Below, one piece after another: positions 40,868 through 62,825 of a stretch of DNA of 64,000 nt. The notes under the pieces were generated by a model. That model worked only from the letters and a program-made list of their open reading frames with translations. It did no database searches and was not told the DNA's origin. Positions within the stretch are counted from its first letter, which is position 1, and each line of letters begins with the position of its first letter. A program made the translations under genes and the position numbers. This stretch comes from [Phialemoniopsis] sp. UDSM-2020 (taxonomy: Eukaryota > Ascomycota > Sordariomycetes > Thyridiales > Thyridiaceae): NCBI GenBank assembly GCA_018873225.1, contig JAEILZ010000005.1, forward strand, positions 558,001 through 622,000, in the 5' to 3' direction.

Positions 40868-41500
40868 TGTATGTCGATGTATTTGAAGATTCGGGAGCTT
40901 GGAGAGCAGCGCGAAAAGAATAAGGACAATGCGGTAACAGGATGTTAATATGTTCAATGGGCGAGAATCATGATGGTGGTGCCGGCTAAGTTCTCAGTTA
41001 TGAACACAACTTGCGCGTTCAGGGATGAGTTGCATCTGACATGGTCAGCCCGAGTTCCCAGATCCTTCGTCACAGCGTTGTACTCATGACCAAGCTCCTC
41101 TGTCATTTCGCTCAGTCCGATCACACATGCTTCATCCATCTTCGAAAGTACCGAAGAAGTCATATGGATCCACAATACTTACAGGGCACTGCCGCCGATC
41201 AACCATGAATAAATTGCTTACCAAGAAAATTAGTCTTGGTAGGATAGACCCTCTGCCCCGGCGCAACAATGTACGTAAGGACCTACTGTCAAGCCGAAAG
41301 AGAACGTTTGCCCCTGATCGTCAAATACCTGGTCCCTTATCTGCTTCCAGCCTGTCTGACACCTACTCTTATTTGTGGGATCCGAAACAAGAAATACTGG
41401 CCACTGCAAATTGGCTAGGATTGTCCGTTCTTTTCAGTCTTCTTCAGCAATTGCATTTCCCCTTCTCAACAGAAACTTCAACCCTCCATTTTTCGTCAAC
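40868..41500. promoter_or_regulatory. Shared divergent promoter, acyltransferase / carboxylesterase
   Basis: 633 bp between divergent ATGs, no gene seen. Opposite chemistries (acyl transfer and ester cleavage) share this region, so joint control is possible. Confidence 0.4.
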
Positions 41501-43424
41501 ATGGACGTCATGATATACCAAAGACTCAGGCCACATGAGAACCTCTCAAATGAGGATTGTAAGGTCGTGTCAGATGGCCGCAAGCGTAAATCCTGCGTGG
41601 CATTTTGCATTCCGCTTGCGGTGCTCATATCCATTCTGACCAGCCTCTCATTCTGGAGTTGCTACCAATCAACGAAACAAACCTACAACGGCTCCATACT
41701 GGCGAAAACAGTCAATGGTACTTACGCAGGTCGATATGACGATGCCTACAATCAACTTCATTTTCTCGGTATGCCGTATGCAACTCCCCCAACTGGTGAG
41801 CTTCGATTCAAGCCGCCGATCCCTTGGAATGTTTCATGGAATGGTGTACGTGATGCGACGAGTTATGGCTCCACATGCGTCACTTACGGTGTAAGTCCAC
41901 TTCCCAAGATACCTGACTCCATCGGGCACCAAAGGACCAAGACTTAGCCATCGTATCAAGAACCACGTCCCTCGATTTACACAGGATGAAGACTGTTTAA
42001 CGATCAACGTTCTTGTCCCGAAACTTGAAGGTCGAAGAATGCCTCTTCCCGTTGCAGTTTTTATTCATGGTGGAGCCAACTATGGATTCTCGTCGCGGGA
42101 TCCAAACTATAACCTAACGTACATTGTGTCCAGTGCGGCACAGAGCGGGATGCCTTTCATTGCCGTCTCTTTGAATTTTCGCGCTTCGATATGGGGATCG
42201 ATTGGCGGCCATGAGGCTTTGGCGACTGGCAATGCCAATCTTGGACTTCAAGACCAGCGACTGGCATTACATTGGATCCAGGAGAACATAGGGCGATTCG
42301 GTGGGGATGCTCGCCAGGTAACTATTTGGGGAGCAAGCTCTGGTGCAAGCAATGTTGGACTACACCTAACTGCGTACGGTGGGAGAGACGATGGTTTGTT
42401 TCGCGCTGCGATACTTCAAAGTGGCAACGCCATAGTGAGAACTCGGTTGCCCCAAACCACGTCCCAGGAAGCATTCGACAATATAGCTTCCTCGGTTGGT
42501 TGCGCAGGAGCAGAAGAGGGGTCCCTTGAATGTCTTCGCCATGTACCCTTTGACCGATTAAATGCGTCCTTCGATGATGGATCAGGGGGCACAAGCAGGA
42601 ACATGACTCCATTCGCAATGCCGTCTATTGACGGAGGTATTGTAAGTCGCTATGGAAGTGTGGCAATGGAAGAATCTAGGTTTGTCAAGGTGCCAATTCT
42701 CATTGGGATTACCACCAACGAAGGTTACGAGTTTGTCGACCCTGGCATACAGTCCTATTCAGGAGATGGACTGGTAAACTATCTACAACGTAAGAACTGC
42801 CCTTTTCACACCGCGGAAGTCATCTAAGATTTGCAACCAGGTGTCTACAAATATCCCTCGGGCTTTATCAAGACGCTACTGTCCTTTTACCCTCCTCGGT
42901 CCAATGCAAGCGAAGAGCCATTGTCTCCTGCGATAAAAGGGATCACAAGTTTCGACCTGTACTCTCGCGCGGAACAGGTACTCGGTGATCTTGAGATGAA
43001 CGCTGCCCATAGGTTGATGTGCGAGGCATTTTCACGGGTGTCTACTTGTTACAGCTACCGTTGGGATGCAGTCGCATTTTATGACTCCGGCAACCCACGA
43101 GAAGGGATTCGACACAGTGCCGAGACTTGGCCCGTTATGCAGAACTTCGATGGTGTAGGTTTCACCAGGAACCCATTTGAGGGTAGAGGGGCCGGGTATT
43201 TCGAAATGGCGAGGGCCGCTGGACTTATGTGGGCAGGCTTTATCACGGCACGAGATCCGAATTTGGCTTTTGGGGACAAGTCTCCTTGGCCCAAGTACAC
43301 CGTCGACTTGCCTCAGAATCTGGTGTTCAATGAGGATGCGACATACTGGGTTGAAGAGGACACGAGAAGACGCTCAGCAACAGAGTATATCCGTAGCAGT
43401 ATGGTGGGTGTTTTACAGAAATAA
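41501..43424 (+). CDS. Membrane-anchored type B carboxylesterase
   Basis: Three exons, 41501-41890, 41985-42789 and 42841-43424; 592 aa. A cytosolic N-terminus is followed by a strong transmembrane segment (about residues 32-54, [18 protein letters not shown]) instead of a cleavable signal, predicting a type II, lumen- or surface-facing enzyme. Esterase marks are [34 protein letters not shown] and the nucleophile elbow WGASSGAS (Ser248). The elbow reads GASSG where GESAG is usual. It could cleave acetyl or other esters. The 3' end is uncertain: splicing from 43404 to an open, coding-like exon at 43529-43648 would give 625 aa instead. Confidence 0.83.
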
Positions 43425-43678: not shown

Positions 43679-44766
43679 TTAGTTCTGACTAGTGATCGAG
43701 CCGTCCCCCTCGCCGCATGTAACGAGCTCCCTTGACATGCTATTACATCGGGCACTATACCTGATATTTCTGCTGTAACCAAATTCTGGTGGTGCTGCCA
43801 AATCGTCCCATCCTTCCCATACAGCAATTTCACTGCTTATTTCTCCAGCCTTCTTATGGTGATGGAACAACTCAGGGAAGACAGTAACACAGTTTAACTT
43901 GCCCTGATGACACCACCAGCCTAGCTCGTTTGTGATGATATCATACTTGCTCCCCCGTGCTGCTTGGTATATCTTGCTCGCTGCTGAAGCGGTGATAGCA
44001 TACGCATAGGTACACCGTGGCGAAATTGATCGATAGACAAGACGTAGTTGGGATGGATGATAAACAGATTCGCCGTGGCGATTCCGGTAGATCGGTTCTT
44101 CTGGCAAAGACCTATCCACTCGGGATAGTACAGCCTGAGAGCCTGGTTGAACAATGTCATCTCCGCAGTGACCAAGCCACAATATGTCCCAAGAATCACC
44201 GTAAGGGGAATTCGGAGAGGATAACGTCTGGTTCGTGAGCTGACGTATCATCGGTCCAATTGCGGCCAACTGAAACCTGATCGATATATCCCAATCGGCG
44301 TCATCTTCCATGATCAGGACTGTGGACCAGCCGCTCATTAGCATCTCACGCAGTGCGTTAAGATGTCCCAACCAACACCTCGCTTGCCCGGGGCCGATTC
44401 GAGGTTTTCTTCCTTTGACCGAGGCTCCTCTGAAACGATCAACATCCTGGACTGTCCAGTTTGGCTGCATGGGAGATGTCAGCTTCAGAGATGTCCTCTC
44501 CGCGGCTTTGTAAAGTCCCTCAGATCTCCATGACGGCCCAGCTGATACAACCACAATTTTCTCGAACTGCAATTCGAATTAGTATATAAGTTAGACTTAG
44601 CATCAGGAATATGACATACATTCAAGGTTGAATTGACATGCTGACAATCTTCCAGACCAGGTTCTCTGTGATATAAATCTCCCCAAACCAATAGTCCTAT
44701 GATTATTAAGATAAGACCTGAATACAACTTGACTTGTCGATAGGAACTGAAACTTATTCGGGTCAT
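43679..44766 (-). CDS. GT25-like type II membrane glycosyltransferase
   Basis: Two exons, 44620-44766 and 43679-44566, phase 0; 344 aa. A single transmembrane segment lies at about residues 14-30 (YSGLILIIIGLLVWG), then a short stem. The GT25 (LPS-biosynthesis-like) domain has KIVVVSAGPSWRSEG, GQARCWLGHLNALREM, VLIMEDDADWD (acidic metal site), DILWLGHCGDD and TYAYAITASAASKI. Family members transfer hexoses to glycans or hydroxylysine; the fungal acceptor is unknown. The topology points to the Golgi lumen. It is convergent with the carboxylesterase and about 1.1 kb upstream, in the opposite direction, of the repeat-protein gene. Confidence 0.85.
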
Positions 44767-45888: not shown

Positions 45889-46410
45889 ATGAAGCTGCGA
45901 ACCCACACCGTCGCCAGTGCGTTCCTGCTAGCCGTGAGTGGTGCGCTCGCTTTGCCTCTCAATGAGGGTGCTCTAAGTGTTGGAGACCGGGCTACATCTG
46001 CGGCGGCTTTGGTTAGTAGCCAGATCGGTGCCACGATTGCCACGCGCAACCCCGACGGCCCCCTCGTCGCTGAGCGCGATCCCGACGGCCCCCTCGTCGC
46101 TGAGCGCGACCCCGACGGGCCCCTCGTTTCCACCCGCGATCCCGATGGCCCCCTCGTCGCTGAGCGCGACCCCGACGGGCCCCTCGTTTCCACCCGCGAT
46201 CCCGATGGCCCCGTCGTCGCTGAGCGCGACCCCGACGGGCCCCTCGTTTCCACCCGCGATCCCGATGGCCCCCTCGTCGCTGAGCGCGACCCCGACGGGC
46301 CCCTCATTTCCACCCGCGATCCCGATGGCCCCCTCGTCGCGGAGAAGCGCGACCCTGGCGGGGTAGTAAACACTTCTGGACTGCGTGCTGTTATGCCGGC
46401 GGAGTATTGA
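45889..46410 (+). CDS. Secreted tandem-repeat protein (10-residue repeats), candidate peptide precursor
   Basis: Single exon, 173 aa. Signal peptide MKLRTHTVASAFLLAVSGALA, then a short spacer, then ten tandem repeats of (N/D)PDGPLV(A/S)(E/T)R (residues 54-154), an eleventh degenerate DPGGVV unit and a short tail ending PAEY. VAER and VSTR units alternate from repeat 2 on. There are no cysteines. Every unit ends in Arg; only the last full unit ends in Lys-Arg, a Kex2 site. The layout (signal, spacer, near-identical repeats with basic ends) resembles Kex2-processed repeat proteins or RiPP precursors, but dibasic sites and crosslinkable aromatics are missing from the repeats. It could equally be a structural surface protein with O-glycosylated Ser-Thr. 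I recognise no family. ATG 45889 was chosen because the signal peptide starts there. Confidence 0.75.
   Translation: MKLRTHTVASAFLLAVSGALALPLNEGALSVGDRATSAAALVSSQIGATIATRNPDGPLVAERDPDGPLVAERDPDGPLVSTRDPDGPLVAERDPDGPLVSTRDPDGPVVAERDPDGPLVSTRDPDGPLVAERDPDGPLISTRDPDGPLVAEKRDPGGVVNTSGLRAVMPAEY
46048..46350 (+). repeat. Ten 30-bp tandem repeats, 60-bp higher-order period
   Basis: Nine 30-bp units plus one 33-bp unit. From 46078 an alternating pair (GCTGAGCGC type and TCCACCCGC type) makes a 60-bp period with very few substitutions between copies, pointing to recent expansion or gene conversion. Long open frames on other frames and on the minus strand here are only by-products of the repeat. Confidence 0.95.
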
Positions 46411-48386
46411 GGGCTGAAAGATTTGTCTGAACTTTATTCCGATGGCAGCCGAGATCGCAATCTCTCTGCTGGTGGGTTGACAGGACAACTACAAATCATA
46501 CTAAGGTTCCGACTTATTAGGCACTCATCTTTCATTCTTTTTTCTATACATCTCTTTTATGTGTCTAGTGTCATGATGGTCAAACATTAGAGTGGCGGGC
46601 ACCACTTAAAGTTGAATTACTCCGTGTATCGTTAGAAACGTACATTTCAGATAATCAATCAACCACATCATGGCAACGCCCTCAATGGTAGTGGAGCGAA
46701 TGCTCGAGCTTTGATCAGAGCAAGTACTGTTTATTCACACTTTTGCTGTGCGACTTTGTGTGGTGATTGTGGTTTTTTCTCATTTCAAAATCTGTGAGTA
46801 AACTTGATCCAGTTTCTGTCCGCCATAGATGTTATCAAGTCATTGCAGCCCTGCTAGCTTAAATCCTTTTTTATATCAATAGCTTGTTATACATGTTTAT
46901 TAGTTGATATTCATATTCAATTTAGTGTTGGGCCTTATACTGTTGAATTCTTTATAACTGTTCTACAAGCTGTTCATAGTAAATCTCTTCTGACCTCAAT
47001 TCAAATTAAATATAAACTTATCTTATCCTATAATACTGAATCAATCAACAGTTCTCTTTATTATTGGCATTACCACTCTCTAGTGTATTTCCATAATGCT
47101 ACTCTTGGCCTACTGTATACTCCGAAGTGATGCCTATCAATATATCTATTACAACATAGTATAGCTGTCGCTACGGCGGGTGTACGTACACACAAAGGTA
47201 ATACGTGGTTCTTGGGGTTTGGTTCATATGATTGTTGTTCGGTTGTCTAAGGAAGGGAGTTACGCACGGCGCCCCTGAGCTAAAAGGGGGCCGCACATTG
47301 ATGTGGGCCCAACCATTGCCCGCATGGTGGCCTACCGTGTGAGAAATTTAACGCACTGTGCGATCACACTGTGCCTACGTGCTGATATATCCACAGTAGC
47401 TGCCTTGCCTTGGGCCGAGGAAGTCGGGCAAACAGTCTGAAATCGCTTTTTAGCTACGTTAAGTGATGAGCATTATAATAACATAAAATGAATCTCTAAG
47501 CAGCATGTTGCAATGACTAAATTGCGGAAACGGTCTATCTAAAAGAGTCTTCAAGTTGCAAAGTCTAGGCGTTATTATTCAGACTACGAAATTACAACGC
47601 AGACCTATATTTCGGAGATTGCTCTTTCTTGACAAAGGCAAGTAATGCTAGGTATCAGGTCTGCATTGATACGACTTCCAGCAGAATTCGCCCCACTTGA
47701 TGAACCTTGGAACAAAATCTGTGGAGATGCCTTCCATCACATTTCAGAATGTCAGTGAGGTCCATCGTCGCTTAATAGGTTCTTAGTACGGAACGGAGTG
47801 CAAAACCCCCCAACCTGATCCCTTACACGCCCACCTATGACAGCTCTGTTTCGGCTGCGTGAGCCGGGCCTATCAAGAATATTGCTACAAGTAGAGGCCA
47901 CGAATTATGGACATGACGAGCTACTGTGCTGTTGGGTCCGACTAGCTCTGCCGTGTGGAGAGCATCAAGCTGATCGATCTACTAGTCCTTGTTGATGGCC
48001 TATTTCCTTCCACCACCTACACGAGATGGACCGAAGCTAATAAAGAGCTACAGGATCTATTGTTTTATGGTGCATCATGAATTTCGGGTTGTGTGAGATG
48101 AATGTGAACGATGAGCATTGGCACGGGCGGCTTTCGCAAGACATGGTTGTGAGAGCTAGAAGAATCTCGAGGGCGTCGCCGAAAATTAGCCAAATGTGGT
48201 AATAACACTTGTGAACTCGTGGGGATGCTCGCGATGACCTGCTATTGATATGTTCCGGCAACAAACCCCCTGGTAGGTGTTCAGCATGGTGCTATATCTA
48301 AGAGATGCTCGTGGCTCTGTTTAGATGCCAATGTGACAGTTAGGAACCCAAAATGCCGGCTCTCTTCATACTCGAGAGCGAACATC
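46411..48386. other. AT-rich gene-free island
   Basis: Nearly 2 kb without a supported gene. The part at about 46860-47040 is close to 77-80% A+T by hand count and has no long frames, which fits mutated repeat DNA (RIP-like) or a relic element. A GC-rich patch at 47267-47310 contains adjacent imperfect inverted repeats. No complete transposon or LTR pair could be recognised. Confidence 0.5.
47267..47310. repeat. Adjacent imperfect inverted repeats
   Basis: CGGCGCCCCT (47267-47276) can pair with AGGGGGCCG (47285-47293), and GGGCCGCACAT can pair with ATGTGGGCCC across a TG centre (about 47288-47310). The two stems overlap and are mutually exclusive. The surroundings are AT-rich, so this stands out; the role is unknown. 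Confidence 0.45.
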
Positions 48387-50058
48387 ATGGCTCTACTTGA
48401 AGCTTTTACTCCCACCTCGATGAACGGAGACTTGGTATATCAAGCTCTATATATCCTTATCGTCCTCTCAATTGCAATCTCGTTGCCAGCTGTGTATTGT
48501 ATTTGGAATTATGTCACAGATCCGAAATCACTGCGACGCTTTCCTGCACCCTCTGTGGCAGCATTCACGCCCTTCTGGATGATCTGGCATAACGCCCACG
48601 GCCGAAGAACCAAGGCAATCGCAGACGCACACAAAAGACTAGGCCCCATCGTCCGAATTGGACCGAACAGTCTCTCCTTTTCCGACCCTAAAGCATACAA
48701 GGACATCTACGGCCACGGCTCCTCCATCATCAAAGACGTTTTTTATGACAACTTGGCGCAGGACACGCCGGCGATGGCTGACACGTCCAGCCGCGAGCTC
48801 CATTCCATCAAGCGCAGAAACGTCTCCCATATCTTTTCTGCGAAGAACATCACAAGCATGGAGTCCAAGGTCATCAAAACGGTCAAGACGCTGCTAGAGG
48901 CCATCAAGATCAAATCAGGAGGAGGGATGGTGTCTGACAAGGACACGTTCGCAGTTATCGATGGCCAATTTGACCTCCGCCCATGGATGAACATGTTTTC
49001 CTTTGACGCTTTTTCGAGTATGCTATGGTCCGATTGCTACGGCTTTCTCGAGCGTGGGAATGACGAGTGTCAGTCAATGGCTGAGGATGGCACTGTCAAG
49101 ACAGTCAACGCCATGGACAGCTTTCAGACCGGAGTACACTTCAACACTATGTGTGCCCAGCTTGGGCCATGGGCGTATCTGGTATCGCGATACATCACTC
49201 AGTGGACGTATCGGAAGAAGGCCGCAGACTACTTCACTGGAATGGCTCGGTACGGTACCGTGAAACGGCTGAAGCAAACACCGAATGAGATTGACTTCTT
49301 CTCATTCTTCCCGTTGGAGGCTACCGAAAAGCGCCCACTGCCTATGGGAGTGCCTGAGCTTGTGGCCGAGTGCACAACTTTCCTCAATGCTGGCAAGTAT
49401 TACGATGAAGTTGACCAGCTTGAGAGCAGCAGCTGACGAACTGTTAGGTAATGATACTACCCAAATCTCGCTCACAAACACAATGTACGAGCTCGCGTGT
49501 CATCCGGATAAACAACAGAAGCTCTACGAGTTGCTCATGGAGACCCTGCCAGAGAGCTCACGGCCAATTGCCTCTCATTCTGAACTCGTCAAGATACCAT
49601 ACCTGGCTGCATGTCTCGATGAAACCTTCAGACTTCTTCCCCCAGTAAGATTTGGCCTGCTCAGACGCACCGTCAAGGACGGCTCAGTAATCAGTGGTCA
49701 GCACGTCCCTGGAGGAGTCACGGTCTCCATGTCGGTCGAGACGATGCACAAAGACAAGAGCCTCTTCCATAGGGCAGGCGAGTGGGTACCAGAGCGTTGG
49801 GTTCCCGGCAGCGCAGGGTTCTCCGAGGCAGAGTGGAAGAACTTGAAGGAGTTTGTGCTGCCCTTTACTCTGGGTGGCCGGGCGTGTATCGGCAGGAACC
49901 TAGCATACATGGAGTTGAGCATTTGCCTCGCAGCCCTTGTGATGGCATTTGAGTGGAAGATCTCGGAAAAGGCTCGGCGAGAATATCGCCACTTTGAACG
50001 TCTCAACTCGAGTCCTGTCAGCTTGCAGATTTCCGCTCGCCCTCGAGCTGAGGTCTAG
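48387..50058 (+). CDS. Cytochrome P450 (benzoate 4-monooxygenase-like)
   Basis: Two exons, 48387-49392 and 49448-50058; 538 aa. N-terminal membrane anchor (ALYILIVLSIAISLPAVY), then LGPIVRIGPNSLSF. The I-helix motif AGNDTT is created across the splice junction. ETFRLLPP is the ExxR motif, and FTLGGRACIG the heme loop with Cys482 as iron ligand. The overall pattern is closest to CYP53-type benzoate hydroxylases, but substrate cannot be assigned. The intron (49393-49447) has a GC donor (GCAAGT) and TTAG acceptor, and it is the only choice that restores AGNDTT. Without it the frame stops soon after the I-helix. It lies in the ER membrane and needs a P450 reductase. Confidence 0.9.
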
Positions 50059-50494
50059 GCACGGCAGTGGTAAGTTGTACCTAGTCGATGGGGATACGCT
50101 CCAATAGTGGTTTTTAGCGCAGAAAGGGAGTAGAGTAGTTTTCAACACAACTGTTCTCACATGGGGTTTTGTTGTAGTGAAATAATCACGAAGCGACGTT
50201 TCCATTCCATGCACGCTGATGGAATGGACAATACTCGGCCTTCAGGCGCTCTGACCCGAGAGGGGAGCGGCAGGGTTCCGTTGTCCTGCATCCTGGATGT
50301 CTATGCCCGGTTGTACTCGGTTCGGGTATAAGCGCGCGAACTAGCATGACATATGCTAGCGGCTTTTCGATGTCAGTCTACTTGCGGCGTGTAAATCACT
50401 TCCCGACACCTATTTCCAATGTTATTTTCAAAGATCATCATCATAGAGAGTAATTGCGTGACGACTGGGCTCTAGGGTCCGCACCGGAGGCGTG
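50059..50494. other. Intergenic region upstream of the SulP gene
   Basis: 436 bp, no gene seen. One GTACTCGG 8-mer at 50313-50320, about 175 bp before the next ATG. Confidence 0.45.
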
Positions 50495-52500
50495 ATGCAC
50501 GCCTCGTCTACTGATCGTGGCATCATGACCCGCCTGAACAGCGTCCAGCAGGTCGACCAGCCAGCCAGCTATGGGTCTTTCTCTTCTTCGTCTTCGTCCT
50601 CCTCAGAAAGCGATTCCTCCGACCGTGAAGAGCATTTCCGCCTCCCCATCTCCGAAACTCACTGGACTGCCCCCGCTCATTCGACTCAGTCTGCCTTTCG
50701 AAAGTGGTTGAACAAAGTCTCCCCCAGCTCATACAAGTTACGATGGAGCCGCTCGTTCCACCGCCATACCATTAAACATGATCTCGTAGGCGCACTCACG
50801 GTCGCATCGCTATACATACCGCTCAGTTTTTCCTTCGCCGCGATAGGTCATGTACCACCAGCCAGCAGCATTTACGCATTCGTATTCCACGCGCCCATAT
50901 ATGCGCTTCTTGGCTCTTGTCCGTTAATGGTCGTTGGGCCAGAGGCGACCGGCTCTCTTCTTGTAGGGGCTGCCGTCCGTCAGATGCATGCTGGAAAAGT
51001 GGATGATCTAGCTGCAAACGCACTCCTTTCCGGTACCATCACAGCGCTCGCAGGCTTGTTTTCACTCGCAGCCGGGTTGCTGAAACTTGGCTTCCTCGAC
51101 AACATCCTGACACAACCCCTCATGAAAGGTTTCATTGGCGGTGTAGGCTTCACGCTCGTCATCGAGCAGGCTCTACCAGGTCTGGGGCTGATACCCTTGG
51201 CAAAGGAGCATGACGTCCTTCAGGGCACTGCTGTGGAGAAGTTGGCATTCCTACTCAGCAGCTTGAACAAAGTACACACCCTGGCCACGACGATTGCTGT
51301 ATGCTCTCTGGTATTCATCCTGGCTTGCACGTAAGTCTTCCGTTTCCTTCTTTGCTACTGATACGGTACTGACCATCATGCAGTTCTGCGAAGAGCATAC
51401 TGAGACAACGACATCCTTGGACCATTCTGTTCCCCGACCGACTCCTGGTCATCTTGATAACAGCGCTACTGGCCTGGCGTCTTCGACTGGATGAGCGTGG
51501 GGTAGACATATTGGGGTCGGTGGGACCTTCCGGACCGACACTACCAACCTTGCACTGGCCGTTTGGCAGCGCATCGAGCCTTCGATCTATTGCGAGCACT
51601 TCTCTACTCATGGCTGTCTTTGGATACTTCGAGTCGTCAGTCACAGCCAAAAGTTTACCCAGACCAAAGCGCGACAACAATGAACACGATGACCAACACT
51701 GCGCAAACACCGAGCTCGTCGCTCTCGGTTTTGCCAATGTCGTCGGTGGTTGCTTTGGGACTTTGCCTGCCTTCGGCGGCTTTGGCAGAAGCAAGCTGAA
51801 CGCTCAGGCCGGGGGGCTCACGGGCCTGAGCAATATCTTCCTTGGCGGCATCAGTCTCATCTGCGCTCTCTTCATCAGTCCATGCCTCTACTACGTTCCC
51901 AAACCGACACTCGCGGCAATGAGCTGTGCCGTCGGCATCTCCATGATGGAGGAGTGTGAGCACGACATCCGCTCGTTCCTTCACATGAGGGCATGGCGAG
52001 AACTCGGACTGATGGCGGCTGTCTTCTTTGCTATCATTCTACAATCAATGGAACTTGGAGTAGAGCTGGGGCTGGGGCTGACACTACTTATGATCATTCA
52101 CGCTTCCAAGCAGGCACGGGTGCGAGTCTCGATTCCTACATTGGTGGGCACACGACGACCGGACATGCAACTCGCCTCGACTCAATACGAGACATCCGTT
52201 GTCGTACGGATTGGAGAGACACTGAACTTCGCAAATTGCGGCGACCTCCTCGCCCATATACATCAGCATATGACTGAAACTCATAGCTTGGTTCTGGACT
52301 TTGGGGAAACTAGTGGTATTGACGCATGTAGCATTCAGAGCTTGGCCCAAGTGCTAAGAAGTATGAACGGGAAGAGAAGGCTCGTGATCCGTCCACCAAG
52401 ATCAAAGAGACTGACGGACTTGCTTCAAAGGGGAGGCCTGCTCGAGATTGCAGAAGTTGAATCATCAACAGAGATGGTTTATGGGAGTTATGATTATTGA
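50495..52500 (+). CDS. SulP-family anion transporter with STAS domain
   Basis: Two exons, 50495-51330 and 51384-52500; 650 aa. A Ser-rich cytosolic N-terminus precedes the SulP core (HDLVGALTVASLYIPLSFSFA, PLMVVGPEATGSLLVG, GFIGGVGFTLVIEQ). TSLLMAVFGYFESSVTAKS and GGCFGTLPAFGGFGRSKLN match the later transmembrane part. The C-terminus is a STAS domain (LVLDFGETSGIDACSIQSL). SulP proteins move sulfate, bicarbonate or other anions. Fungal members of this subtype are not always sulfate permeases and can be vacuolar. The preceding GTG at 50492 is not used. It is convergent with the TAP-like hydrolase, with 56 bp between the stops. Confidence 0.92.
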
Positions 52501-52556: not shown

Positions 52557-54340
52557 TCATTGCACAGTTGCAGGAGGCGCGCATCCCTCTTCATGCCACG
52601 GCTGGCAGTCAGTGTGGCACTTGGTCCCCTTTTCAGGCAATGTTCCAAACTCGAGATAGTCCCTGATGATGTCGTTGGTGCACTCGCTCCAGCCACATCC
52701 AAGCGCACTGTGTCCCATCGAATCTTGAACCACCAGAACAGATCCCGGATGGGCTGCTTCGACCTTTTGGGCGAGGGCGATCGGTGTGACGGGATCCAAG
52801 TGAGATCCGAGAAGGAGCATTGGAGCAGCGGGAGCATCGGGACTCAAGTTCGGGTCCGCCTCCGGGGTCGTCCACGGGCCTGCAAACCTCCACTTGGCGG
52901 GAACCTTCCACCCGGAGCACGTCAGACGAATGTTGGCCCACGTTGGACCCGTGGAGATGGACTGGTTTTTGAGCTCGTTGACGTAGTCGATGTAAAAATC
53001 TGCATCGTGGCCTGTCGCGTCTGTCGCGTCGCCGCAAGCAATACTGGCCTTGGCGTCCTCCATTTGCAGAGCCACTGCCGTCTCCGACGTCGAGTTGCCG
53101 GTCTCCGCGGCGCAGTCGCTCGGCAGGCTGACGGTGCCGTAGATCTGCGTGATGAGACTGGTCCAGTTGCCCGCCATCGCGTCGGCGAAGAGCTGCGCCT
53201 GGCCGCGGAAGCTGGCACCGGGCGTGTTCACAGATAGATAGAAAGTCTGCCGTAGCTCATGGCCCGTGACGACGAAGGCTTGTCCGTTGTAGGTGACCGG
53301 GATGGGTGTCTCGATCGCATTTTCGATGAAGTTGTCGACCCGCTTCTTGATATCAGCACCGCTCTGGTCCTCCTCGGTTTTGAGGGCGCATTGGTCCCCA
53401 GCCTCGAAGCAAGTGTCGTAGAAAGCGGTCACGACAGTCTCGGTATCTAGAAGGTTGGTGAGCCACCACTGCAGAGCCGCGTTAGCATCAGACCCCCGTC
53501 AATGAATTTCAGGGAAGAACTGACTCCTTTCGTGAAATCTTCCAGGTCCGCCACTGCATCCAGTATCATGCGTCCAACGCGTCCAGGGTACATGGCAGCG
53601 AACGTATTGTGCAGTATGCTACCATACGAGACCCCAAGACTGTGGAGTCGGGGCAGCGGGCGCTTCTCAGCAGACGCCGTCCCGTTGCCACTGGTCTTGT
53701 GCCTCAGCTCATCTACGCGGTCCACGATCTCGAGCATATCTCTGGCGACCGCTGGGGTCGAGACGTGGGCCAAGATGCCCGTATCCTCATTGGTCTCCTT
53801 GCAGACGGATCCATAAGCTTGGCTGAGGGTGTACCGCTTGATGACCGCATCCGCACCACCGGCAAGCGAGCCGATGCCTTGCTGGTTGAGGAGCATGGCG
53901 TCCCTGGCAAGCAGGCTCTGGAAACACTGTACGCTCGGAGTCGTGTTCTTGATGCCGCGAGGGTCGAAAGCAAGGTACTCGTAGTGCTTGTTGCGGTCCG
54001 CGATCTGCTGGAAGACCGGCCCAAAGCCCAGGCCGAAGTCCACTCCAGATGCGCCGGGGCCACCGGGGCTGATGACGATTGTGCCGCCGAAGCTTGGGTC
54101 GTCTTCCGGAACTGTGGCTGGCAGCACGGTGATGGCGATTGCGACGGTCGCATTGTTCTCTGGATCGTTCCAGTCCATCGGTACCTTGAGCCTTGCGCAC
54201 TTGAAACCATCGTAGCATGGATGGTACTGCAGGTCGGAAGTTGGCTCAATGGTCGTCCAGTCGAAAGTAGCCGGAGCCGCTGTCGCGATGGACGCGACCG
54301 CGCTCAGCAGCACTGCACTTTTCGCAATTCTGTTCGCCAT
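52557..54340 (-). CDS. Secreted TAP-like alpha/beta hydrolase (tripeptidyl aminopeptidase family)
   Basis: Two exons, 53525-54340 and 52557-53468, phase 0; 575 aa. Signal peptide MANRIAKSAVLLSAVASIATA. Oxyanion region VISPGGPGASG, nucleophile elbow GVSYGS with Ser238, the Asp in LLGSHLDPVTP and the His in SMGHSALG complete a catalytic triad of the TAP C-terminal family. Relatives (S33-type, SCO7095/TAP-like) remove N-terminal peptides or act as esterases; the substrate here is not known. The intron 53469-53524 (GTCAGT donor, GCTAAC branch) was chosen because it joins DFTKG to WWLTNLLDTE as in homologues; read through, the first frame stops. Several sequons suggest N-glycosylation. Confidence 0.88.
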
Positions 54341-55820
54341 TGTGTTGAGTACAGGATGGAAAGCTGTGTCCCAGGACACCGAGGACACCGGGCCGAACAG
54401 TTATTATACCATTTGCGTCTGTAGAGACTCATTTTACGGCCATTTTCGTCGCGAATGATGTCTCCCCGGCAGGAAATGGAAATCGGGCCATGACGTGCGG
54501 CGGGAGTGTTGATGGATACCGGGCTTCCTCTTCGGGCAACGATCCGCTTATAAGCTGGAGACAACACTACTCCATCATTTCGAGGCAACTTCAGAGCCTA
54601 ACAATTGCATCGTTGATTGAAGTGTTTAGATCTCTCAAAAACGGGTATTTCCCGTCGTGCGCTGGTAAACCAGTGTCGGAACTTCACAAACACAGAAGTC
54701 AGATAGGTTTAAGCTTAAAAATCCCAAGATTGAGTCCTTCAGTGCTGGCCACGGCCTGCATCGGTAATTGTGCGATTGCTCGACTTTAGCTGTGGAAGCT
54801 TGCTGTAAAGGGTAGCATTCTTCATCAGTCGGACCGAAGATTGGCGTGGAGAAAGCTGACGGCATGCCAGGCTTTCGCACCTTGGCAAGCTTAGTTACCT
54901 TATTTCCGGGTCCGGGGGATGCGGGGCAGGATTTACTTCATTCCAATGCCTAGACTGCTGGCTTCCATTTGTTCAGTTCAAGGCTTCTAGGCTGACTGGT
55001 CCTCGAATCGTCCAGTCGGGTTCTTTGTCGCATGGCCGTTCTTCTCGGAAGCGCAGGAATTCGCGGAGGATTACAAGGTTCTCCCGTCGTTCGGAAGAAC
55101 GCTCCTCGCATTGCTAGACTCACTGCGTTCCCCCACGTTCAGGGGCCCTGTGAACTGCCACTGACTGATGGCCCGCCGTTCTGTACGCATCACCACAAGG
55201 ACTCACGAACAGGAGGTCAATTCTCTGAGTGATTGGAACGACATATAACCTGATACACGAGCCAAGAGGCCGACCAGATTTAGCTACCGCACCCTCTCGG
55301 CTGGGACTGTGTCAAGTGGTAAGGCCTGAAGTCGGTGCAGTGAGCGATCAGACCTCTGGGGCAGGGGACTGTGCTTCAGATGCCTGCACCCTCACCTTTG
55401 CTCACCACCATGATCTTCGCGACCGTGTCTCAGATCCGTATGCGACCGCACCAACGCAGTAGTTCATCTGTACACTATCCGTGCGGTGTGTGATGGAGCA
55501 AAGGGTTTCTTTCCTACTCTACCGCCCATGCCGCTAATTCCTCTGAACTCGAGTGTCGGAGGTGAGCCGATCCGCCGTGCAGAATGGGTGGACAAACAGA
55601 GCGGTACCAAGTTTCTCGGTTCTCCTGTGATTTCGATGCTGCAGGATGTAGGCCCGGGGTCCGGCTCATTGTGCTAGGGTCTTGTATCAGGACTGTGCTC
55701 AAGATCGACCATTCTCCAGAGATTCTCGATTTCCGAGATCGAGTGCACCTTCTCTTCTCTCCTTCCATCTCCTAGAGATGCCAAAGTTGATCTCTCCACA
55801 GATGCATTCACGACTTCAAC
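54341..55820. other. Intergenic region, no gene seen
   Basis: 1480 bp between divergent genes. Only short frames (under 100 codons) without domains. The left part carries the TAP-like gene's promoter, the right part that of the PAN-domain gene. Confidence 0.5.
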
Positions 55821-56846
55821 ATGCGATGTATGTGCCTCTTGTACGCGGTGTCATGGGTACTAGGCGATGCGATAGGCCAGGTCAGGGCGCTGCCACCTCG
55901 TGATGTGGCGGCGGGGATGGACGCTTCTCCTGAGCCCAAGAGCGACAGTGGAGGAATACTCGCTATGAGACAGGCTGTCAGTCCATGTCCAGGGCAGGAC
56001 AACACGACACTCAATCAAACATCCGGACAACGATTCCAACTTTTCTGTGGTGCCGACATCACCGGCACGCCGCTTTTCCAGACGGCGATGAGCGGGTTAC
56101 TAGACTGTGCCGACCTTTGTACATCTTTTCACCCCAGATGCGACGCCGCTACGTTTGCGAGCAACACCGGTCAGTGTGCTCTCAAGGCATATCTCCCATC
56201 CAATGCCTCGTCATCAACAACACCAAGTACTTTCGACACCGTCATCGCGATACCTCGAGAAGCAAAGTCGAACTGCCGGTCCCTGCGAGGCAACCAGGTC
56301 GTCCGTGGAACGGGGTTCAAGATGTTCTGCTCCATGCTCAGCAATGGTAACGACCTCATACAAACCTTTGCGCCCAACTTCCAAGACTGCATGGGGCAAT
56401 GCGTCTCCAATTCGCTTTGCAAAGGCATCTCTTACGAGGCGGCACAGACAAAGGGGCTCAAGAATTGCTATCTCAAGACGTCCGTCAACGCAACGGATCT
56501 GCAGCAGCTCGACGGCGTCGACTCTGCTCTGGCAATCACTCGGTCCAGGAACGATGGAGGCCGAAAAAATAACAACGATGACGATGACAACAGCGGCAGA
56601 AATAACGGCAACGGTCGGACACAACGACCGCAGGATGACCGACAGAATGTGGCACTTGGTGTGGAAGGATACGACTCGATTGACACGAAGCCGTGGATTA
56701 TTGCCAGCGCGGCGGGTTCCAGTGCCGTGGTCGTCTTCATCATGGTCATGGTGTGTCTGCGTAGTCGAGAACGATTCTCACGAAGGCAGCGGGGGAAGGT
56801 ACTGGATCCGGGATACTACGACTCAAACAAGCCACCGTTACCATGA
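55821..56846 (+). CDS. PAN/Apple-domain single-pass membrane protein
   Basis: Single exon, 341 aa. Signal peptide at about 1-23, then two cysteine-rich modules (Cys about 56-119 and 152-216) with spacing like PAN/Apple domains (FQLFCGADITG...DCADLC and FKMFCSMLSNG...DCMGQC). A polar Asn/Asp/Arg-rich stalk (about 243-275) follows, then one transmembrane helix (292-313) and a basic cytosolic tail. PAN domains bind proteins or carbohydrates, so this is probably a cell-surface binding or sensing protein. No enzymatic motif is present. Three or more N-glycosylation sequons occur in the ectodomain. The start at 55821 is the first ATG of the frame. Confidence 0.8.
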   Translation: MRCMCLLYAVSWVLGDAIGQVRALPPRDVAAGMDASPEPKSDSGGILAMRQAVSPCPGQDNTTLNQTSGQRFQLFCGADITGTPLFQTAMSGLLDCADLCTSFHPRCDAATFASNTGQCALKAYLPSNASSSTTPSTFDTVIAIPREAKSNCRSLRGNQVVRGTGFKMFCSMLSNGNDLIQTFAPNFQDCMGQCVSNSLCKGISYEAAQTKGLKNCYLKTSVNATDLQQLDGVDSALAITRSRNDGGRKNNNDDDDNSGRNNGNGRTQRPQDDRQNVALGVEGYDSIDTKPWIIASAAGSSAVVVFIMVMVCLRSRERFSRRQRGKVLDPGYYDSNKPPLP

Positions 56847-57107: not shown

Positions 57108-60100
57108 TCATTGAACCTCACTCTCGGGCAGTGTCTCGAGGCAAACCTTCTCGGCATAGTCATAGCCACCCTTGATGACGGTCAACCCGCCGTCTCGACT
57201 TAGGACAATGTCACTATCTACTAAACAAGAGACTACGCCTCTACTCCCTGCAAACCAATCAGAAGGAATGAAGAAATGTCTGAATATGTCCAACGAACGA
57301 CGGCGTTGTTGCTCAGCATCTGAAACACATTGGTACTGGCTCAGATTTGCGGAGCAAACCCAGCCGGATGCATCGAGAAATACCAATCTTCCAGCAGTAG
57401 TAATCCCGAAAGTGTGACGAATATCCGAGATCGTCGTGCGCAGCAGTAATCTCGCCGGTATGCTTGAGCTGTCCTGGATTTGGGAATCTTGGGCTACCCA
57501 GGGTGGATCAAATATCGCTATACTGTTTGTGTGGGATAACCCATTGCGATTCAAGAGTGTGAGAGCCATCCAACCTGAGGACACGAAACAGTCCATCAGT
57601 CTTGCATCAGTCTGTAGCGATGGCAGTGCGATGCGAGCGACCATTGCCAGATCAGCCCAGCTGAAGATGCAGACATTGGCATCATCAATGCAGACTATGT
57701 TTTCGGGTTGAGATGGATGAGATACCCATTTGGGAACGCCTGAGTCTACCTCTGACTCCCGGAACTTTTGCTGTGAAATAAGTTCGCAGGTACTCAGTCG
57801 GTACAAGTAAACCGTCTCACGGGTCGACACCATGATTCGATCCACATCCTCGCCTACCAGCACATCGACTACCGCACTGTCACACTCGAGGCGGGAGTCG
57901 AAAATCTTCTCGACAATTCCGGTCTTTTGCACTGAGTAAAGCAGCATCCTATTTGCGTAGTCGATACTGAGCAGGGTAAGGCTCCGCGGACACCACCTTA
58001 AAAGACGGACTGAGCACTTGTGGCTCCAAAGAATCCCAGACAAGGTCGCGGTCTTTCGGCTGTAAAGTGAGACGGTCCCGTCGTCCTTGCCACAGAATAT
58101 GGCATCAGCAGAGTGATGAACGGCCATAGCTGTTACTCTCACGTCGGAGACTAACGCACTGGTCTTTGCGGTCGGCGTCGAAGAAGAGTCGTCGCTTCCT
58201 TCGCTCAAAGAGTTCAGTAGGATTGTTTCGGGATTCCACACCGTACATTGAGCACCTCTTATGCCAGCAAATAGAAGGCTGTCAGGCGAGAATATGATGT
58301 GTTTGATGAATGATTCTGATGTCTTGACACGGTACAGAAACCTCAATGTCTCGAATTGGTAGACGCTGATGAGACCATTCGCGCCACCGGCAGTGAGAAG
58401 ACGGCCGTCAGGACTCGCAGCGAGCGTCTGACAGTTGGCGCGAAAACACTGTAACTGCTGGTCAGAGAATGGATCAAATAGTGCGAGATCGCCGTCAAGG
58501 TAGGCGACGGCCAGAAGTCCAACGTTTGGATTTGGGTTGAAGGCCAGGTCGACAACGACGAAGGAGCTGGGATCCCCATTGAAGAGTCTTTTCCCGCATT
58601 TTCCTACATAAGACTCTCCCTCAAGATCCCAAAGCATAATTGCCTTTCCGTGATAGGCAACAGCAAGCAATTTTTGGCTGACAGACAGAGCAAGGGCACT
58701 AGGGGATCCTCGCGATGGTTCAGGTCCAGTTGCAGGTCCATCCCTCCAGTGAGTTTGACTCGGCTCTGAGGAAAGGTCATTTCCAAGCTCCCATGACGCC
58801 AAATAGTTCTTGCTAGATGAAATCAGAAGCTTGTGGCGGTCAAAGTCAATGCTGAGAGGCCGAGGAGGACTCTTGAAGCTGCACAACATGTCACCGTTGC
58901 TCATATGCCAAACTTTCACAAACTTCAGCCCACACGTTGCCATGAGGTCTGACTTGCTGTTAAAAGCAATAAGCTGAATTGCCTCACCATGGGCCAGTGT
59001 CATGTGCTCCTGGTACGACGTCGTGTGGTATACGATGACTGATCCAGATAAGAGTCCCACAGCTAAGAAGTCCACTCCATAGGCCAATGCACTAGGGCGA
59101 CTCTCTCGGAAGTTGACAAGGAGAAGTTTGTCGTCCCATTGCTCTTTCTTAGAGCCAGTGACTATGACTCTGCGGCCCATGATTTGGGTGTTGTGTACCA
59201 TGTATCTGGTGGGACAGAATGGCGGGATCAAAGAATATATCGCAGATGGGCAGGTGACAAGTACATCCGAAAATATAGCCGGTATGTGAGTAAGATCCAC
59301 CGTCCATTGTCTGAGCGACTGTATCCGTGGATTCAAAGAGGGGCTTACGATATGATAAGCGTCGATATATGCCCTCAGATATTTTGAAGTACGTGTGAAT
59401 TGCTCCAATTGGTATGACTTCGCGACGGTTTCAATCCAAGACAAGACGTTCTGTTTGAAGAATTGCTCGACAAGTTGAAATATTGCGGGATCTTGGGACT
59501 TGGACTTGGCGAGATGGTACGAAAAGGCTGTTTGAGCGTATGCAGCGAATGGCAGCCGTGAGGTGGGTGGACTTGCAGACTCAGCTGAGGGAGGTAGGGT
59601 GCCTCTTGGAGGCTTCATCTCGCCTCCTATCAGGTAAGACAAACACGTCCGAGCCATGGCTGTATGTGCCAGATTTCGACGCACTGAGAATTCTGAGTCA
59701 TTCTCTTCGTCAAGAAAGAACTCTCTGGCAGTTTCGTGAACTAGTAGTAACCTCTGGCGCCTATCGACAACCACCAGTTGGCCGCAGAGTGATGCTATAG
59801 TGTTCTCAAAGTCTGGAACATCGTCCCCGATATCCAAGAACAGGGCTCCTTGGAGCTCTTCTGTCGTCATTGGACGAAATGCACATGTTGCCCACACAAG
59901 GATGGTCTTTGCCAGCTTTTTGCCCCTTGTTAGAGTCGCCATCGTGGTAAGTGTTTGCCTGTACAGTGGCACCATGCCCTTGGGAACATCTCTTAGTACC
60001 TGATCGATCTCCCTCTTACTGTGACAGAGCTGCAGTTCTTTGAGAACTAACACCGTCCACAGAAATGAACCTCGAGAGCGAGCAAGAACCTTATCAACCA

Positions 60101-61769
60101 ATGATGGACGGTCGGCAGGTCCCACGGACTCGAGAAGCTGAGTTCTGGTTTCAACCAGCAAGCTGATGTCAGGCAAGGTGTCTGCTTCTGATATGGTGAT
60201 TGTCTGTGCCAGAACCTTTGAGAATGCTGTATTCAACTCTGTCGCATCTCTCCCAGCAACGAAAATCCTCAGGTCGACAGAGTCGTGAATGCTGGCCAAA
60301 AAACTTTCAACGAATGTCAAACCGTCGGAGCACTCGTCTAGGGCATCTATGATCCAAAAGTGGCGCTTTGATGTACTTTTGAGGATCTTGGACATGAAAA
60401 TCGTCCTCCAAAATGTCCGTTCATCGACATGGTCGACATCAAGGCCATCGGTCTTGAGTTCCATCAGTGCATCACCAACCTGATTGTCCGCACACGCCAT
60501 CTGGAAGGCAATGGACTTCAGACAACGGCCGAGGTGAGATTTTGAATTGTCTCCATGCTTGAAAAAGAAGTAGCTGCAAGAGTTCTCGTCTTGTTGACAC
60601 TGATTGATGATGTACCCTGCGAGGACAGACTTCCCAGCTGCAGGCTGACCTTTCAACCATAGAATGCGGTTGCTTGGCGAGGTGTCATCTCTCCATTGTC
60701 TAAACTCAATCTTGTCCGAGATCCACTGGCAAGATCCTGGTATTCGAGCTTCACAGGCATTGATGAGATCATCGTCAATGACATCTGGTATATTCAGGTA
60801 TCTCCTAAAGATTATGGCTCGGTCGCGTTTTTCTCTCAGCTCTCGCTTTGAAATGATGGCCGCCAAGTTGTTCAAAGTTGAAGAAAGCGCATTTCGTAGC
60901 AGTATGTAGTTAGGGTCGGATGGCGTGTTGTACTTGCAAATAGATCGATGGTCGGCAGTCATGGGTATTTGCTTTTCTTCACGGTATCCCAGAACAGCAG
61001 ACTCTGGATCCACAATGAGCGAGCCAAACAGTCCCATGTTCTGTGTTTCGTAAAACGACCAAAGCTCAAGCTCCGTGGAGAAGTTCCGGAATTCGTCGTT
61101 AATGATCTGGACTGTTGTAGAGTTTCTCTCTAGATCGGCCACATAGGCCCGGTCATATGCCACCTTCAATAGCTTCTTCAGCGTCCTTGCCGAATCCGTA
61201 CCACGATGTGGTGTTGCAAGAAAATATACTGCAACGAATCTCCGAGCCAACTGCTTGTATGCTGAGTCTTGCTTGGCCAGAATGATCGCCTTTTTGATCA
61301 CCAGACCCCCCATGCTGTGTCCGACAACAATGATGTTTGTAGCGGACCCAATACATGGTGACGTGCTGACTGCAGCTAGAAACGCCTTGCCAAAATGGTG
61401 TACGTTGAGACAATCCCCTTTGCCCCTTAGATAGTCGGAGTTGTAGCCATAGCTATGAATACGTGCATGGGCAAGGTCGGGATCTTTCGGTAGCCACTCC
61501 TGAGGCCAATAATGGGACCGCTGGGCTGTCTTACTCCATGTCTTTCGAGATCCTCCGCCCAGACCGTGCACGAAAATGATATCCACCTGGGGCTCGGATG
61601 GAGAGTGGAGAAGATTCAGACCAAGCGGCCCTTTGACATCGTCCACAACATCGTTGGCAGAACTGAGCGAGTTTCTGAACAAGACTGTTGATAGAGAAAA
61701 CGGACTCCTGGATCGTGCAATCGTATTATCACTGTTTGGCACGTCTTCGGACGCATCGTTGGTCTGCAT
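57108..61769 (-). CDS. Hydrolase-NACHT-WD40 STAND protein
   Basis: Uninterrupted 1553-codon frame. Residues 60 to about 260 form an alpha/beta-hydrolase (SesB/DUF676-like) domain: DIIFVHGLGGG and GHSMGG with Ser152. A NACHT domain follows, with Walker A GQPAAGKS (374-381) and Walker B WIIDALDE (472-479). From about residue 850 the C-terminus has at least six degenerate WD40-like repeats (for example KVWHMSNGD, IMLWDLEGE, CTVWNPETI). In fungi such proteins work in heterokaryon incompatibility or non-self sensing; the hydrolase is thought to be the effector. The degenerate WD repeats differ from the near-identical ones of fast-evolving NWD genes, so this may be a conserved sensor. The start is the ATG at 61769; an extra upstream exon is possible. 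Confidence 0.87.
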   Translation of the reverse strand: MQTNDASEDVPNSDNTIARSRSPFSLSTVLFRNSLSSANDVVDDVKGPLGLNLLHSPSEPQVDIIFVHGLGGGSRKTWSKTAQRSHYWPQEWLPKDPDLAHARIHSYGYNSDYLRGKGDCLNVHHFGKAFLAAVSTSPCIGSATNIIVVGHSMGGLVIKKAIILAKQDSAYKQLARRFVAVYFLATPHRGTDSARTLKKLLKVAYDRAYVADLERNSTTVQIINDEFRNFSTELELWSFYETQNMGLFGSLIVDPESAVLGYREEKQIPMTADHRSICKYNTPSDPNYILLRNALSSTLNNLAAIISKRELREKRDRAIIFRRYLNIPDVIDDDLINACEARIPGSCQWISDKIEFRQWRDDTSPSNRILWLKGQPAAGKSVLAGYIINQCQQDENSCSYFFFKHGDNSKSHLGRCLKSIAFQMACADNQVGDALMELKTDGLDVDHVDERTFWRTIFMSKILKSTSKRHFWIIDALDECSDGLTFVESFLASIHDSVDLRIFVAGRDATELNTAFSKVLAQTITISEADTLPDISLLVETRTQLLESVGPADRPSLVDKVLARSRGSFLWTVLVLKELQLCHSKREIDQVLRDVPKGMVPLYRQTLTTMATLTRGKKLAKTILVWATCAFRPMTTEELQGALFLDIGDDVPDFENTIASLCGQLVVVDRRQRLLLVHETAREFFLDEENDSEFSVRRNLAHTAMARTCLSYLIGGEMKPPRGTLPPSAESASPPTSRLPFAAYAQTAFSYHLAKSKSQDPAIFQLVEQFFKQNVLSWIETVAKSYQLEQFTRTSKYLRAYIDAYHIVSPSLNPRIQSLRQWTVDLTHIPAIFSDVLVTCPSAIYSLIPPFCPTRYMVHNTQIMGRRVIVTGSKKEQWDDKLLLVNFRESRPSALAYGVDFLAVGLLSGSVIVYHTTSYQEHMTLAHGEAIQLIAFNSKSDLMATCGLKFVKVWHMSNGDMLCSFKSPPRPLSIDFDRHKLLISSSKNYLASWELGNDLSSEPSQTHWRDGPATGPEPSRGSPSALALSVSQKLLAVAYHGKAIMLWDLEGESYVGKCGKRLFNGDPSSFVVVDLAFNPNPNVGLLAVAYLDGDLALFDPFSDQQLQCFRANCQTLAASPDGRLLTAGGANGLISVYQFETLRFLYRVKTSESFIKHIIFSPDSLLFAGIRGAQCTVWNPETILLNSLSEGSDDSSSTPTAKTSALVSDVRVTAMAVHHSADAIFCGKDDGTVSLYSRKTATLSGILWSHKCSVRLLRWCPRSLTLLSIDYANRMLLYSVQKTGIVEKIFDSRLECDSAVVDVLVGEDVDRIMVSTRETVYLYRLSTCELISQQKFRESEVDSGVPKWVSHPSQPENIVCIDDANVCIFSWADLAMVARIALPSLQTDARLMDCFVSSGWMALTLLNRNGLSHTNSIAIFDPPWVAQDSQIQDSSSIPARLLLRTTISDIRHTFGITTAGRLVFLDASGWVCSANLSQYQCVSDAEQQRRRSLDIFRHFFIPSDWFAGSRGVVSCLVDSDIVLSRDGGLTVIKGGYDYAEKVCLETLPESEVQ

Positions 61770-62243
61770 ATGTGGCTGCGATCTGGGAAACTACAGCATA
61801 AGTTTCGTGATCAGTAATGATTCGACGTAGACAGAGGGCCAAAATACAAGGGCGCCCACCATCATGCGTTGCAGTCATATGGCGATCAACATTATCAACC
61901 AAGACGCAATTCTGGGTGTTCATGATCAAACCACAAGGAACAGAGGCAGGTTTCTTGGGTGCCTGAGCGCCCTGCGCGGTTAATGAGATCCAGTCTAGAA
62001 CTCCGCTTCCATGCATAACAATATCGAACCCACCACAGAGCCACCAATCAACCAGCTGCTTAAGCGCTCGCAATCCCTCGGGCCCACCTGAACCAGAGCA
62101 GGAGATGAGGCAATCTTGTACAATTTCATCAGACTGTGTATCCATCGGAGGAGCCGATTCTCTGAGATGATTTTTATCTGCTGTTTGCTATACTTCGAAA
62201 CTTAACCAAGTCATTGGCGCTTCTTGATCTTTCACTCAATGCA
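61770..62243. other. Divergent region between STAND and deaminase genes
   Basis: 474 bp between divergent ATGs. A 138-codon minus-strand frame (61729-62145) fills most of it and overlaps the first codons of the STAND gene in another frame. It has an ATG and ordinary composition but no recognised domain, so it is left uncalled. Confidence 0.4.
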
Positions 62244-62825
62244 ATGGGCTCGCTAGAGGAACTGCCCTCCTATCCTGTCGATGATCATGAAAGGTTCATG
62301 AATCACGCCCTGGAACAAGCCCAGAAGTCCCCCCCTGGGGAGAATAAGTTTTGCGTCGGGGCTGTGCTGGTCGATGGGGACACAGGAAAAGTCCTGTCCA
62401 CAGGTTACTCGTTAGAGTACCCTAGGGACTACAAGGGAGATGAGGGAACAACACATGCAGAGCAGTGCTGCTTCATCAAGATCGCCGACGCCAACAACGT
62501 CAAAGAGGAAGAGGGGATTGTCGAATACCTCCCCAAGAACACCGTCTTGTATACGACAATGGAACCTTGTAACGAGAGACTGAGCAAAAAAACGACATGC
62601 ACGACCAGAATCATTGGACTCAATGGTGCCGTCAACACAATATACGTGGGCATTCGCGAGCCGGGTACTTTTATAAAGAATAATGACGGGCAGCAAAGAT
62701 TGGAAGCACATGGTATTAAGGTCGAGTACCCTGTCGAACATATGAAGAAAAGGATTATAGAGGTGTCTTTGACCGGACATCCATCGTCCGTGATTGCAGA
62801 GGTGCTGAAGGCGGCCGGACTATAG
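62244..62825 (+). CDS. Rib2-type (DRAP deaminase-like) cytidine deaminase-fold protein
   Basis: Single exon, 193 aa. The CDA-fold zinc site is THAEQCC (His71, Glu73) plus MEPCNERLSKKTTC (Cys109, Cys119). The surrounding pattern (TVLYTTMEPC, RLS, REPGTFIKNN) matches the deaminase domain of yeast Rib2, which deaminates a pyrimidine intermediate of riboflavin synthesis. The pseudouridine synthase part of Rib2 is absent, so this is a stand-alone deaminase. It could act in riboflavin synthesis or on another aminopyrimidine. The frame is open from a TTG at 62214, but the ATG at 62244 is the first real start. Confidence 0.85.
   Translation: MGSLEELPSYPVDDHERFMNHALEQAQKSPPGENKFCVGAVLVDGDTGKVLSTGYSLEYPRDYKGDEGTTHAEQCCFIKIADANNVKEEEGIVEYLPKNTVLYTTMEPCNERLSKKTTCTTRIIGLNGAVNTIYVGIREPGTFIKNNDGQQRLEAHGIKVEYPVEHMKKRIIEVSLTGHPSSVIAEVLKAAGL

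Follow-up and report, generated by a model that had tools for sequence, protein, structure and literature searches.

A short gene in the fungus [Phialemoniopsis] sp. UDSM-2020 encodes what would be, with a probability that we put at about 0.55, the precursor of small secreted peptides, one that works like the Kex2-processed repeat proteins (KEPs) of fungi but through extended Kex2 sites that end in a single arginine. The gene lies in a 64,000-nucleotide stretch of DNA (the window), which is positions 558001-622000 of contig C7 in an assembly of 44,176,824 bases and 11 contigs, and it consists of one forward-strand open reading frame (ORF) of 173 residues at 45889..46410, stop codon included. 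Its N-terminus, MKLRTHTVASAFLLAVSGALA followed by LP, resembles a signal peptide (residues 1-21, 45889..45951, presumed cut ALA/LP) and passes a crude filter of hydrophobicity and -3/-1 residues, as do nine in all, this one included, of the 203 ATG-initiated ORFs of at least 60 residues in the window. There follow a pro-region of 32 residues (22-53, 45952..46047), whose last residues are IATR, and ten decapeptide units of the form (N/D)PDGPLV(A/S)(E/T)R (residues 54-154, 46048..46350), the final one ending VAEKR, so that the sole Lys-Arg site of the protein (residues 153-154, 46345..46350) stands at the end of unit 10. The remaining 19 residues (46351..46407) are a C-terminal tail, DPGGVVNTSGLRAVMPAEY, the start of which resembles a decayed unit. 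The protein is acidic (pI 4.3) and free of Cys and Trp throughout, and residues 54-153 hold no Phe, Tyr or Trp. A first-pass annotation, made from the letters alone, had reported the ORF, the ten units, the lack of Cys and the single Lys-Arg, and was right in all these main points; the signal peptide that it named is kept as a signal-peptide-like start, on the strength of the crude filter.

The repetition itself is far beyond chance: Tandem Repeats Finder describes 46044-46344 either as a 30-bp unit in 10.0 copies or as a 60-bp unit in 5.0 copies (94% matches, score 518). Units 1 and 2 are both of the VAER type, and from unit 2 through unit 10 the AE and ST types alternate strictly, with single deviations in unit 1 (N for D at its start), unit 6 (V for L) and unit 9 (I for V), and with one additional codon, AAG for Lys, in unit 10. 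A possible in-frame intron of 90 nt (GTGAGT...CAG, 45934..46023, forward strand) would, if spliced, shorten the pre-pro region and leave the repeats untouched; it is not favoured, because the presumed signal-peptide cut site would be lost with it.

The evidence that carries the proposed processing is at the boundaries between units. The extended Kex2 motif has Arg at P1, Lys at P2 and then, in order, Arg, Thr, Pro, Glu and Ile, any residue at P3, and Leu or else Ile, Val, Ala or Pro at P4 (Outram et al. 2021, PMC8528282); the residue sets were taken untuned from the legend of Fig. 1 of that paper, and the P2 ranking is second-hand from there. All 11 repeat boundaries match this motif (IATR, five VAER, three VSTR, ISTR and AEKR), none of the protein's three other arginines does (MKLR, VGDR, SGLR), and in the window at large 82 of 742 arginines (11%) do. 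The latter count comes from 29 ORF pieces, running stop to stop and in some cases overlapping, out of the 31 that Pfam or a homologue supports, all but 28148-28696 and 41360-41944. Since the boundaries are copies of one another, three origins rather than 11 were counted, and with three independent origins assumed the rough chance that every boundary fits is 0.001-0.004. The two residues that are replaced between the AE and ST types are P3 and P2, and P2 thereby switches between Glu and Thr, both of which are permitted. After the cut, P1' would be Asp at ten of the boundaries and Asn at one, with an X-Pro pair at all 11. Cleaved Kex2 sites are enriched in an acidic P1', and a change from KR/D to KR/A is cited as blocking the processing of ScPir4 (PMC2515848), while X-Pro or X-Ala following a cut is described as the signature of Ste13 (PMC6339444). 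For KEPs expressed in Pichia pastoris, products were reported that apparently arose from cuts after single Arg (PMC9769878), and the Kex2 motif of pro-domains has been taken as KR, RR or LxxR (PMC10942635).

If the gene is expressed, the 173-residue protein would enter the secretory pathway, where Kex2 would cut after the Arg of IATR at the end of the pro-region and after the Arg of each unit (VAER, VSTR, ISTR, AEKR), recognizing an aliphatic P4, Thr, Glu or Lys at P2, Arg at P1 and an acidic P1' in place of a dibasic pair. These cuts would release the decapeptides DPDGPLVAER and DPDGPLVSTR, from which the C-terminal Arg would probably be trimmed by Kex1 (a gene outside the genome searches) and the N-terminal X-Pro dipeptide by a Ste13/DPP-IV enzyme; the end products, roughly DGPLVAE and DGPLVST, would be linear and unmodified, with a possible signalling or effector-like role. 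Fungal KEPs yield pheromones, surface-active peptides and mycotoxins. Candidates for the machinery are encoded in the genome, namely one kexin (a P_proprotein match, PF01483, whose two open pieces carry the catalytic motifs DDG, HGTRC and GTSAAAP) and two DPP-IV matches (PF00930) as X-Pro dipeptidyl peptidases. A cut at single Arg followed by X-Pro trimming had already been proposed in the first-pass annotation, and this part has gained the evidence of the motif; with all 11 boundaries of the extended Kex2 type a new protease is not needed, and the new precursor class that was proposed alongside claims more than the evidence does. That there is a class of fungal secreted precursors with single-Arg extended Kex2 sites, missed by the published surveys, and that this alternating array would yield its two peptides near 1:1, is a tentative suggestion. 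The Lys-Arg of unit 10 may be a relic, in which case a unit that had lost its AAG codon would have been amplified, and a dibasic precursor would thereby have become a single-Arg one; the direction of this change, from a dibasic ancestor, is a guess.

Several observations weigh against this reading. The boundaries being copies, 11 matches are not 11 independent events. Glu, at P2 of five of the 11 boundaries, comes fourth among the five residues listed after Lys, and VAER may therefore be poorly cut; Pro would stand at P2' after every cut, and no test of the effect of Pro at P2' was found in the literature searched. The signs of selection on the unit peptide are also weak. Between the consensus sequences of the AE and ST types, the codons for DPDGPLV carry four silent and no replacement changes (p about 0.0025, on 5.7 silent and 15.3 replacement sites), and the next two codons carry five changes, which turn Ala-Glu into Ser-Thr. 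When every distinct core change across the ten units is counted, the tally is four silent to three replacement (p about 0.06), just two silent differences set every unit of one type apart from every unit of the other, and the count does not separate the sense frame from one of the antisense frames. This weak recount lowered our estimate for a single-Arg precursor from 0.58 to 0.55 and slightly raised that for no working gene at all.

The search for homologues that the first-pass annotation had proposed tells against the precursor as well: the whole protein, compared with 5.8 billion proteins at E up to 0.001 and up to 10, gave no match (88 candidates each). That fungi are covered can be seen from the protein of a neighbouring GT25-like gene, which had 185 matches; the 120 of these that were listed include named filamentous ascomycetes and reach 65% identity at most, with Thozetella (60%) and then Seiridium (57%) as the best that carry a name, from which the host would be a filamentous ascomycete, probably a Sordariomycete. 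Because the best listed relative of that neighbour is just 65% identical, missing homologues say little about close kin, which seem to be unsampled, and the orphan status is better put as unseen outside a poorly sampled lineage than as unique. In the genome itself, the search returned three matches, these being the gene, its antisense and an unrelated low-complexity stretch of contig C9. Unit peptide strings such as DPDGPLV, GPLVAER and NPDGPLV were not found in the literature searched, and single-Arg repeat precursors were not announced in its titles or the starts of its abstracts, a scope that excludes the supplementary tables of the KEP surveys.

A further point on the same side comes from repeat frames elsewhere in the genome, which has 34 matches to UstYa (DUF3328, PF11807), 31 of them above the cut-off. 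Eight regions were taken from the loci of these matches, a sample biased to UstYa loci, and three of the eight have repeat frames, all with dibasic sites, a local habit from which the single-Arg gene departs. In L006 (5396-5788, or C1:514395-514787), five SEAQSPDILYNNAAGWGRKR-like units with dibasic sites follow a signal-like start, with UstYa matches on both sides, and the locus is likely of the dikaritin type. In L009 (2603-2118 on the minus strand; contig C9, about 490117-490602), eight AADYIYPIP units, most of them ending PEKR, lie about 2 kb from a UstYa match, and L010 has two less regular repeat frames with dibasic sites. Aromatic residues are present in the repeat frames of all three loci. 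From these frames the fungus seems to produce KEPs of the ordinary dibasic type as well, a mild argument against the proposed processing; the occurrence of dibasic repeat frames near UstYa also argues clearly against filing the gene of the window with the UstYa type. The extended motif was counted seven times in the L009 frame and not at all in the frames of L006 and L010, which shows that sites with Lys at P2 do not in general have an aliphatic P4. Separately, four UstYa matches lie within about 5 kb at C8:1881109-1886362 (in L005), where a repeat scan of 9.9 kb found no repeat frame, and at about 1500-1810 of L002 (contig C9) there is an unrelated 30-bp repeat, APADPEQDTP-like when translated by eye, in a long open frame that runs on into a Walker-like GCGKTT motif.

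The main rival, which we regard as unlikely, is a secreted or wall-bound protein whose array is left whole, a spacer or coat rich in proline and carrying O-glycans, and in which Kex2 would cut at most at IATR and perhaps at the Lys-Arg. A surface protein with regular Ser-Thr glycosylation sites had been the second alternative of the first-pass annotation. Near-identical arrays are common in surface proteins, the lone dibasic site does sit at the end of the array, Ser-Thr is present in four of the ten units, and the acidic, Cys-free protein has no confident fold. Against it stand the extended Kex2 motif at every boundary and the Asp at P1' of ten of the 11; six units are without any Ser or Thr, neither a Ser/Thr-rich stalk nor a hydrophobic C-terminal tail of the glycosylphosphatidylinositol type is visible in the protein, and its sole Pfam match is to RHS_repeat.

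Improbable in a greater degree is that there is no working gene, and that an expanding GC-rich minisatellite of 30 or 60 bp, with several frames open by coincidence, lies behind a signal-like start that arose by chance. One more forward frame and two antisense frames are open inside the array, so its open frame is little evidence of coding, and its G+C content is 0.75, where the intergenic stretches on either side have 0.42 and 0.43; the homologue search without a match and the core changes, barely off chance, are what a minisatellite would give as well. On the other side are the A at -3 of the ATG, a TATA-like sequence upstream of the ORF, the signal-peptide-like start and the extended Kex2 motif at the pro-region boundary, which is outside the array; the last two make the minisatellite less likely, if not by much.

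A folded array, in which each (N/D)PDG would be a turn and each PLVAER or PLVSTR a strand of an antiparallel beta-meander somewhat like the shells of Rhs/YD-repeat proteins, is very unlikely, for although it has the DPDG turn motif, a summed Pfam RHS_repeat score of 36.2 bits (cut-off 22), an alternation that would put unlike strands side by side, and nine weak PDB matches (E 0.004-0.45), of which five are to designed beta-trefoils and the other four to toxins or proteins of the Rhs type, the Tyr of YD repeats has no aromatic counterpart in these units, not one RHS stretch is above threshold by itself, and AlphaFold2, run on the single sequence without an alignment and hence weak evidence, gave no strand (mean predicted local distance difference test 43, predicted template-modelling score 0.10).

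The genes around the precursor do not have the look of a biosynthetic cluster, as a cytochrome P450 is there (48249-50058) and a UstYa match is not. On the upstream side are the GT25-like glycosyltransferase (43682-44578, minus strand), assigned by protein homology, and a carboxylesterase (41360-42827), assigned by Pfam like all that follow. Beyond the P450 come a sulfate permease with a STAS domain (50462-52500) and, on the minus strand at 52560-54400, a TAP-like alpha/beta hydrolase that is split over two open pieces and has a signal-like start. A PAN-domain protein (55791-56846) follows, and after it an NLR-like protein of the NPHP3_N/WD40 kind (57108-61790, minus strand). The TAP-like family includes secreted aminopeptidases, and a link of this hydrolase to peptide trimming is conceivable. 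Two other features of the window were seen in passing: an AT-rich segment directly downstream of the repeat gene (46840-47100), with a G+C content of 0.295 against 0.43 across the whole downstream intergenic stretch, and a deaminase at 62166-62825 (forward strand) that scores 172 bits to PF18785, a model named for invertebrate AID/APOBEC and here matched in a fungal genome.

If single-Arg arrays of extended Kex2 sites are real precursors, then peptides of a predictable kind are missing from the catalogue of those that fungi secrete, since searches for the usual two-residue site overlook such genes; a rule of [LIVAP]x[KRTPEI]R at each boundary of secreted repeats would find the remaining ones, and the alternating array would serve as a natural test of the choice of Kex2 at P2 (Glu, Thr or Lys) within a single substrate. 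KEPs were defined by dibasic sites in both large surveys, by Umemura 2020 as at least three repeats of at least eight residues between KR, KK, RK or RR (PMC7329392), and by Le Marquer et al. 2019 as at least four fragments after cutting at KR/RR, else KK, with unusual Kex2 sites not excluded for the catalogues discarded there (PMC6339444). The first-pass annotation had likewise held a dibasic site between copies to be usual in such precursors, which agrees with these criteria.

Of the known systems, the Rhs/YD-repeat proteins (PF05593) have in common with the array the DPDG turn-like motif and a YD period near its 20-residue double unit, whereas the units here have no Tyr and a basic period of 10; the gene was rejected as an RHS_repeat member, the summed score being above the cut-off and no single stretch above threshold. 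With the dikaritin/ustiloxin-type precursors of ribosomally synthesized and post-translationally modified peptides it shares the secreted repeat layout, and the first-pass annotation had raised that type; none of the UstYa matches falls in the window (the nearest on C7 is at 1225856) and no unit has an aromatic residue, on which grounds the dikaritin reading was rejected. The K2PP secreted proteins, with their LxxR-type sites (PMC8528282), are similar in having a pro-region closed by an extended single-Arg Kex2 motif, here IATR, with Ile rather than Leu at P4. The pro-domain of K2PP proteins is N-terminal, disordered and closed by KR, RR or an LxxR-type motif; for the present pro-region a low-confidence model gives one helix at residues 31-41. 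As described there, K2PP proteins lose one pro-domain and release one protein, whereas here the motif recurs every 10 residues.

The closest likeness is to the linear KEPs, such as the alpha-pheromone precursors of ascomycetes, with which the protein shares a signal-like start and a pro-region, a compact array of nearly identical repeats whose boundaries all have a Kex2 motif followed by X-Pro, and a neighbourhood without a UstYa match. The ascomycete alpha-pheromone core contains Trp and Cys, and the protein, with neither, does not fit an alpha-pheromone precursor. It differs from KEPs in its one dibasic site in place of one per copy, in units without Trp, Tyr or Cys and in an array that alternates two peptides, and with a single KR in the whole protein it falls outside both published criteria, so that either screen, as described, would reject it. 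From its sequence, then, the protein is most likely a linear precursor that would work like a KEP while standing outside the KEP definition, its layout that of a KEP and its novelty the extended single-Arg sites, a known but seldom used form of the Kex2 site.
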